From: an uncultured Rubrobacteraceae bacterium
GTDB lineage: Bacteria > Actinomycetota > Rubrobacteria > Rubrobacterales > Rubrobacteraceae
DNA length: 41,323 bases
Direction of reading: 5' to 3'
Assembly (NCBI GenBank): GCA_902806065.1
Contig: CADCVE010000014.1
Span: 1 to 41,323 of the forward strand
Part shown: positions 1,570 to 3,174 of the stretch, piece by piece
Position numbering within the stretch: the stretch's first letter is position 1
How the letters are laid out: each line of letters begins with the position of its first letter
Made by a program: the position numbers and the translations under genes
The notes under the pieces: model-generated
What the model was told of the DNA's origin: nothing
Databases searched by the model: none
Seen by the model: only the letters and a program-made list of their open reading frames with translations

Positions 1570-1905
1570 CTACGAGTAGCGCTCCCGTTTGGCGTCAAAG
1601 AGGCTAGAGGAGGTGTTGCCGTAAGAGCCGGTGATGACGCTCAACAGAACAAGGCCGGGAAGGATGAAATCAAGGTAGGGCACCCCCTCCACCTCCCGGA
1701 TGCGGCTCCCCAGCCCGTATCCGAAGACAACGATATAAAGCGCCAAGGTCAGGAGGGGCGCGAGCAATGTTTGAGTCCACACTCGCATGAACCGCCGGAT
1801 CTCCCGAGAGAGGAGCTTCTGGAAGGGTATGCCGAAGACCCAGAGCTTGGACGCATCTTCGGCTTCGGCGTTCTTTTTCTGACCAGCCTTACTCGACCTC
1901 GGTGC
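1570..1905 (-). pseudogene. Truncated ABC-2 transporter permease (N-terminal fragment)
   Basis: The reading frame encodes a typical ABC-2 permease N-terminus: LLSREIRRFMRVWTQTLLAP, then TM helix LALYIVVFGYGLGSRI, then GVPYLDFILPGL and an SSSLFDAKRERYS ending at a stop. A complete permease has about 250 residues and six helices; only about the first 90 remain. The only ATG (1788) falls inside the conserved N-terminal region, and the homologous part continues upstream of it without a start codon. No partner ATPase is nearby. It is best read as a decayed gene. It lies in the same frame as, and immediately after, the tandem TAG stops of the glutaredoxin-like gene. Confidence 0.75.
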
Positions 1906-1908
1906 CTA

Positions 1909-2151
1909 CTATAACCCGATAGCCCGCGCCAGCCTCTCCCGGTCGAATCCGACTACCACCTCGTCGCCCCCGACGACGGTGACGGGCGTGGTCATTGTCC
2001 CCAGCCGCTCCAGCTCAGCCATCGCCTCCTCGTCTTTGGCTACGTTCCTAATACTGGGCTCTACGCCCCTCTCCCGGAGGAACTCCTCCGTCCTGTCGCA
2101 GAACAGTCAACCCGGCTTCTGCACATACAAGACCACGTCGCCTTCTTGCAC
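1909..2151 (-). CDS. Glutaredoxin-like protein with in-frame TGA at the first catalytic Cys (candidate selenoprotein)
   Basis: Translation from GTG at 2151 gives a thioredoxin-fold sequence: VVLYVQKPG, then TGA (2109-2107), then LFCDRTEEFLRERG, ending with the cis-Pro loop TMTTPVTVVGG and a terminal helix before tandem TAG stops. In glutaredoxins the position of the TGA is the nucleophilic Cys of CxxC, so decoding would give UxxC. A perfect 6-bp hairpin (2090-2085 with 2080-2075, loop AGTT) begins 16 bases after the TGA, and its loop begins 22 bases after it. This fits the bacterial SECIS pattern of a short stem with G in the first two loop positions. An AAAGGAG lies 12 bases before the GTG; an in-frame TTG at 2163 is an alternative start. 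A nonsense mutation in a dying gene is the competing reading, because the next gene is truncated. Confidence 0.6.
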
Positions 2152-2454: not shown

Positions 2455-3174
2455 TCACGCAGCCGTCTTGATGCCCCGCCGGACGAGCCACAGCACCGCC
2501 GGGTAGCCGGTCAGGAACCCCAGGATCAGGCCGATCTGCATGAGGAACAAAAAGGTCACGTCGCTGGGAGGGGGCATAAAGAACAAGAAGTGCAGGACCA
2601 GCATCCAGCCGCCCATGCCGACGTCGAAGGCGAGGACCGTCACCAGGGCTATCAGCAGGGCCACCCCGAGCCCTTTGCCCGAGGGTAGGCCGCGCGCCGG
2701 CACGGTCGAGAAGAAGTACTCGAAGACGAACAGGAGTGCTGTAGCAATCACGGCGATCACCAGGATCATCGCCCATAGGTCCAGGCCGGCGATTGTTAGA
2801 CCCGAGACGACGACCAACGGCACGCCGAGGACGTGTCCCACGGCCGAGGCGGCGCCGCCGGGGGTCCCCCCGGTTACTGCCGCAGCGGAAAGGCTCTTTT
2901 CGGGGGCAACGCCGTGCTCCGTCCGCCACTTCTCGCTCCGCGGGCGACCCCATCGGTTGTAGGCCCAGAGCGCCAAGGGTCCGAGGTAGAGGGCGGTTAT
3001 GGGCCATACCGCTCCCATGACGCTCGTACGCTGACGGTAGCCGCGACCATAGATGTCGTAGAGAATTGCGACCGCGCATAAGATCGCGATGCCCACGAAA
3101 ATCCAGGAAATTACCGTCAACCATGTGGGGATCATCGGCGCCATGGCGCCCATATCCATACCGTCCATATTCAT
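2455..3174 (-). CDS. DUF4396 multi-pass membrane protein
   Basis: 239 residues with hydrophobic segments at about 17-40, 52-72, 117-150, 170-190 and 205-235. The N-terminus is Met/Asp-rich (MNMDGMDMGAMAPM). It contains the family motif VWPITALYLGPLALWAYNRWGR (longer than quoted blocks; key residues are WP, ALYLGP and the YxxxGR end) that defines DUF4396. The biochemical role of the family is unknown. The Met-rich N-terminus and a promoter layout shared with the DUF305 gene suggest a link to metal, perhaps copper, handling. The ATG is preceded by GAAGAGAG. A second long reading frame on the same strand overlaps it but has no recognisable homology. Confidence 0.88.
   Translation of the reverse strand: MNMDGMDMGAMAPMIPTWLTVISWIFVGIAILCAVAILYDIYGRGYRQRTSVMGAVWPITALYLGPLALWAYNRWGRPRSEKWRTEHGVAPEKSLSAAAVTGGTPGGAASAVGHVLGVPLVVVSGLTIAGLDLWAMILVIAVIATALLFVFEYFFSTVPARGLPSGKGLGVALLIALVTVLAFDVGMGGWMLVLHFLFFMPPPSDVTFLFLMQIGLILGFLTGYPAVLWLVRRGIKTAA

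Follow-up and report, generated by a model that had tools for sequence, protein, structure and literature searches.

Selenocysteine (Sec)-containing glutaredoxins are listed among the bacterial selenoprotein families (PMC1794560, PMC13188914). The closest described system is Grx1 of Clostridium (Alkaliphilus) oremlandii, which is natively a selenoprotein and has been proposed as the reductant of Sec-MsrA (PMC7642778). These sources bear out the remark in the initial annotation of the locus studied here that such proteins exist in other bacteria. In 2006, five selenoproteins were attributed to Rubrobacter xylanophilus (PMC1794560), and the tRNA-Sec of this species has been described (PMC5330540); among the papers searched, few name Rubrobacter together with selenoproteins or selenocysteine. 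The window analyzed here, a stretch of 41,323 nucleotides from an uncultured Rubrobacteraceae bacterium, carries on its reverse strand a gene that, at a probability of roughly 0.96, encodes an 80-residue Sec-glutaredoxin with a UxxC motif, whose UGA would be decoded via SelB and a hairpin within the coding region. The reading frame, the single conserved TGA, the Sec machinery, the conserved hairpin, and the fold were all established computationally. The type of protein is already known, so that the Rubrobacteria represent a new lineage of a known bacterial selenoprotein type, and existing knowledge of Sec decoding is unchanged.

The coding sequence extends from position 2151 to 1909 (minus strand), from a GTG start (2151–2149) that lines up with the start codons of its relatives, ATG or GTG, to a TAG stop (1911–1909). 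The sequence AAAGGAG (2170–2164), 12 nt 5′ of the start codon, is a probable ribosome-binding site; promoter and terminator scans found nothing. The translation, VQEGDVVLYVQKPG-U-LFCDRTEEFLRERGVEPSIRNVAKDEEAMAELERLGTMTTPVTVVGGDEVVVGFDRERLARAIGL*, contains one internal stop, a TGA at codon 15 (2109–2107) in the first position of the CxxC motif, and the catalytic motif reads U15-LF-C18, with the resolving cysteine C18 encoded by TGC (2100–2098). The remaining frame is intact, conserved among relatives, and free of further disabling changes. With Cys at codon 15, the protein matched the Pfam glutaredoxin family (PF00462; 53.3 bits vs. a gathering threshold of 22.9, E = 3.2e-14), in agreement with the earlier description of a thioredoxin-fold sequence interrupted solely by a TGA at the CxxC nucleophile.

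A structural model built on ten sequences of the clade to which the window protein belongs (clade A, see below) had a mean pLDDT of 86, with two of the five models being poor. Its order of strands and helices is that of glutaredoxins, and U15 is placed just ahead of the first helix. The matches of a fold search were glutaredoxins, including C. oremlandii Grx1 (7c10; 37% identity, rmsd 1.2 Å), which was also the best sequence match in the PDB (E = 1.8e-19). C. oremlandii Grx1 (7c10/7c12) and the window protein are alike in size, fold, the position of the U/CxxC motif, the cis-proline (TTP in the window protein), and the C-terminal VVVGFDR motif, whose GFD is found near the C-terminus of the window protein; they differ in that Grx1 stems from an anaerobic Firmicute and has the motif UPHC as opposed to ULFC/UMFC here. 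Among the NCBIfam models, GlrX_YruB (TIGR02196) scored highest and matched over near the full length (5.7e-15), but the window protein falls outside this family by cut-off definition (55.6 bits vs. 88.55). The UXX-star families (NF041212, NF041211, NF041114, and NF047338) also comprise small Sec-containing glutaredoxin-like proteins with detectable similarity; in contrast to these, the window clade retains the second Cys (UxxC), and all four models scored below cut-off, NF041212 reaching 43.8 bits with the window protein and 56.3 bits with the clade B copy of the same genome (cut-off 66). NrdH-redoxin (TIGR02194; 1.9e-09, 37.6 bits vs. a cut-off of 85.75) shares fold and size with the window protein, but no nrdEF neighbors were seen. 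Since both the window protein and the clade B copy remain under the cut-off of every NCBIfam glutaredoxin and UXX-star model, automatic annotation probably misses the window protein, and annotation of the group is probably poor. The gene, which a standard pipeline would predict as two fragments or not at all, joins the likely selenoproteins.

The distribution of the gene was determined in 39 genomes of the class Rubrobacteria and in a phylum sample of 396 genomes. Within the class, 23 loci in 18 of the 39 genomes contain a single TGA, always at the codon equivalent to that of the window gene, whereas Cys occupies this position in three loci (L034, L035, and L042) and Ser in one (L018). The comparison of orthologs suggested by the initial annotation, Cys versus TGA, is thus answered overwhelmingly in favor of TGA. 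All nine contigs from a named collection (Rubrobacter or Rubrobacteraceae records, or an Actinomycetota MAG) also carry the TGA. Outside the class, the phylum sample yielded no TGA-containing match at E ≤ 1e-11, and the sole match, in genome G043, has no stop. Phylogenetic analysis resolved two sister clades, one containing the window type (clade A, motif U[LM]FC except for the divergent L033, which has UVPC) and the other with the motif U[PGA][ASP]C (clade B). As the Cys forms are nested within clade B and the Ser form within clade A, Sec was likely the ancestral state in both clades and was replaced about three times, although several inner forks of the tree are poorly supported. Two sister Sec clades indicate that Sec-glutaredoxins are a lasting trait of the Rubrobacteria. 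A plasmid search returned as its sole match a degenerate glutaredoxin copy with three TGA and one TAA codons, a relict on a plasmid of Rubrobacter marinus (L047; NZ_CP045122.1, 52800–52973). Two scans of viral contigs turned up no relatives, giving no sign of a phage gene.

The source genome, that of a Rubrobacteria-class actinomycete (3.75 Mb in 112 contigs, 95% complete), contains all four components of the Sec machinery for which a search had been proposed. On contig C94, selA is directly followed by selB and then by the tRNA-Sec gene, about 43 bases past the SelB match. SelA (TIGR00474) scored 500 bits (cut-off 268), SelB 354 bits (cut-off 242), and tRNA-Sec 66.5 bits (47), the latter also being called as tRNA-SeC with the anticodon tca by ARAGORN. 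SelD (contig C48; 353 bits) itself has one in-frame TGA (AG-U-ASK) with an 8-bp hairpin behind it. On contig C65, a gene resembling the formate dehydrogenase alpha subunit (L096) carries a TGA in ARI-U-HSATVPGLG, which is the known Sec site of this family, and again a hairpin follows; the match of this gene to the family model falls into separate pieces and scores below the family cut-off. With TGA at the expected sites in two glutaredoxins, SelD, and the formate dehydrogenase-like gene, Sec is predicted to be used in at least four proteins of this genome, two of them glutaredoxins. Among the 39 class genomes, SelB was detected in 29 (21 of 22 when limited to good genomes) and tRNA-Sec likewise in 29, and one or the other was found in 17 of the 18 genomes with a TGA-containing glutaredoxin gene, the exception being 75% complete. 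Since almost every member of the class has the machinery, its association with this gene is statistically weak (Fisher p = 0.049). Genome G016 of the family has two tRNA-Sec genes (C49:139475–139565 and C19:10563–10652), one of which is located apart from selB.

The second Sec-glutaredoxin of the source genome (L019; C57:2047–2271) belongs to clade B and is 40% identical to the window protein. Its only TGA falls at the equivalent codon (QPG-U-GPC), and a hairpin follows at the distance seen in the window gene. A third, intact paralog of 79 residues (L018; C8:1614–1832) is 67% identical to the window protein over the match and clusters with the UMFC copies of other genomes, away from the window copy. 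In its motif, QPG-SMEG, Ser replaces Sec and Gly replaces the second Cys, so that the protein is Cys-free, and its hairpin is lost; its role may be non-redox.

The initial annotation had pointed to a 6-bp hairpin with an AGTT loop 16 bases past the TGA, and such a structure, CGGAGG-AGTT-CCTCCG, is indeed found within the coding sequence at 2090–2075 (loop 2084–2081). Published criteria for bacterial SECIS elements (bSECIS) demand an apical loop of 3–9 nt, an upper stem of 4–16 bp, a G among loop positions 1–2, a spacing of 16–37 nt between UGA and apical loop, and a minimum free energy of −7.5 kcal/mol or lower (PMC13188914). The window hairpin falls within all of these limits: it combines a 6-bp stem with the 4-nt loop AGUU, the loop reading AGUU or GGUU across all members of clade A; its stem begins 16 nt and its loop 22 nt past the TGA, and its energy is −9.4 kcal/mol for the 16-nt hairpin and −11.0 kcal/mol for 27 nt. 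When the 46 nt directly 3′ of the TGA were folded freely, an alternative structure won (−17.4 kcal/mol) and the conserved hairpin had a probability of 0.07. When the first 9 nt after the TGA were left out, because a ribosome at the UGA would cover these bases, the hairpin was the lowest-energy fold, each of its pairs having a probability of 0.93 or more. The first nucleotides after a UGA lie inside the ribosome standing at this codon.

The hairpin is located 15–16 nt past the TGA in all 23 TGA genes, and the GU in its loop is conserved. Compared with 2000 folded synonymous recodings of the hairpin codons per gene, the native hairpins had z-scores from −0.47 to −3.30 with a mean of about −2, values that are not independent since the genes are related; the window hairpin was only modestly more stable than its own recodings (z = −1.40, fraction 0.116). 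In clade A, 54 of 54 stem cells are paired and two pairs have changed on both sides (G-C to U-A and G-C to A-U), whereas pairing fell to 44–70% in a control in which the partner was slid along. The clade B stem is paired in 95 of 96 cells, with one doubly changed pair. The pairing register differs by one base between the two clades, but the distance from GU to TGA is the same. The conserved hairpin is lost in the Ser form L018 (z = 0.08) and the Cys forms L034 (−0.54) and L035 (−0.52), where it would be expendable because a Cys or Ser codon needs no SECIS, and the sequence of the Cys form L042 adopts a different fold instead. Repeated replacement of Sec by Cys and one replacement by Ser, accompanied by loss of the SECIS hairpin, provide a compact natural series for studying Sec gain and loss. 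The Rfam search of the region returned no RNA family above threshold. The hairpin overlaps the codons for EEFLR, as had been held against it; this overlap is real but carries no weight against a SECIS, as bacterial SECIS elements normally sit inside the coding region. Sequence and folding criteria thus support the hairpin as a SECIS element with predicted SelB binding. Together with the Sec machinery and the TGA-containing orthologs, the conserved hairpin strengthens the case for the selenoprotein that had been put forward as a candidate.

Judging from the machinery, the hairpin, and its conservation, SelA and SelD would make Sec-tRNA-Sec, which would be carried by SelB; with the ribosome at the UGA (2109–2107), loaded SelB would bind the hairpin (2090–2075) and Sec would be inserted, upon which translation would run on to the stop at 1911–1909. 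By analogy to the chemistry of the family, the selenolate of Sec15 may attack a target at a disulfide or mixed disulfide, Cys18 may resolve the intermediate, and the oxidized form may be recycled by a low-molecular-weight thiol or a flavin reductase. A Sec-MsrA partner as proposed for C. oremlandii is unsupported here: the only MsrA found in the source genome has no internal TGA, so that the partner must differ or a Cys-containing MsrA is used.

An unlikely alternative is a selenoprotein whose function is not that of a glutaredoxin, for example an NrdH-like electron donor, a peroxiredoxin helper, or a metal or metalloid binder as suggested for UXX-star proteins. It would fit the nearest NCBIfam models (GlrX_YruB, UXX-star, and NrdH), all of which score below cut-off, and the C-terminal GFD, since classical glutaredoxins carry a glutathione-binding GG-D signature at this place. 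ZIP-like or Nramp/DtxR-family genes near some relatives (L085, L088, and probably L091) point in the same direction but are not general, and are a weak functional lead; the neighborhoods of the relatives revealed no common partner. The UxxC motif, the cis-proline, and the structural closeness to C. oremlandii Grx1, a proposed MsrA reductant, favor a glutaredoxin function instead. More speculatively, and rather doubtfully, clade A (U[LM]FC, UVPC in one member) might be a distinct, Rubrobacteria-specific selenoprotein family that diverged from the other Sec-glutaredoxin clade to work with a partner of its own, possibly under metal or metalloid stress; the Cys-free SMEG paralog on contig C8 would then belong to the same pathway without a redox role.

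Far less probable is a pseudogene, in which a point mutation from TGC to TGA or a sequencing error would have disrupted a Cys-containing glutaredoxin with a hairpin arising by chance. A single base change would produce the identical codon, and the R. marinus relict illustrates that copies with several stops exist. However, TGA occupies the equivalent codon in 23 loci of two clades, the rest of the window frame is intact and conserved, and the genome has the Sec machinery; a one-off mutation, the objection raised initially, or an error is untenable because an independent paralog in the same genome shares the TGA position. That UGA is subject to general read-through, or encodes another residue under a variant code, has nothing specific in its favor and is extremely improbable given that UGA terminates the neighboring DUF4396 gene, where it works as a stop because it falls three residues past the Pfam domain, that the hairpin, its loss in Cys and Ser forms, and tRNA-Sec point to SelB-dependent decoding, and that nested lineages swap UGA for Cys codons in the usual Sec-Cys exchange.

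The neighborhood of the gene is not conserved among its orthologs. The adjacent 72-residue open reading frame (1570–1788, minus strand) resembles the start of a membrane permease, has no Pfam match, and is apparently truncated as described initially, but with neighbors varying in this way its state carries no weight against the gene. Proteins with the domains DUF305 (413–1294) and DUF4396 (2455–3174), both encoded on the minus strand, flank the gene and contain Met-rich stretches.
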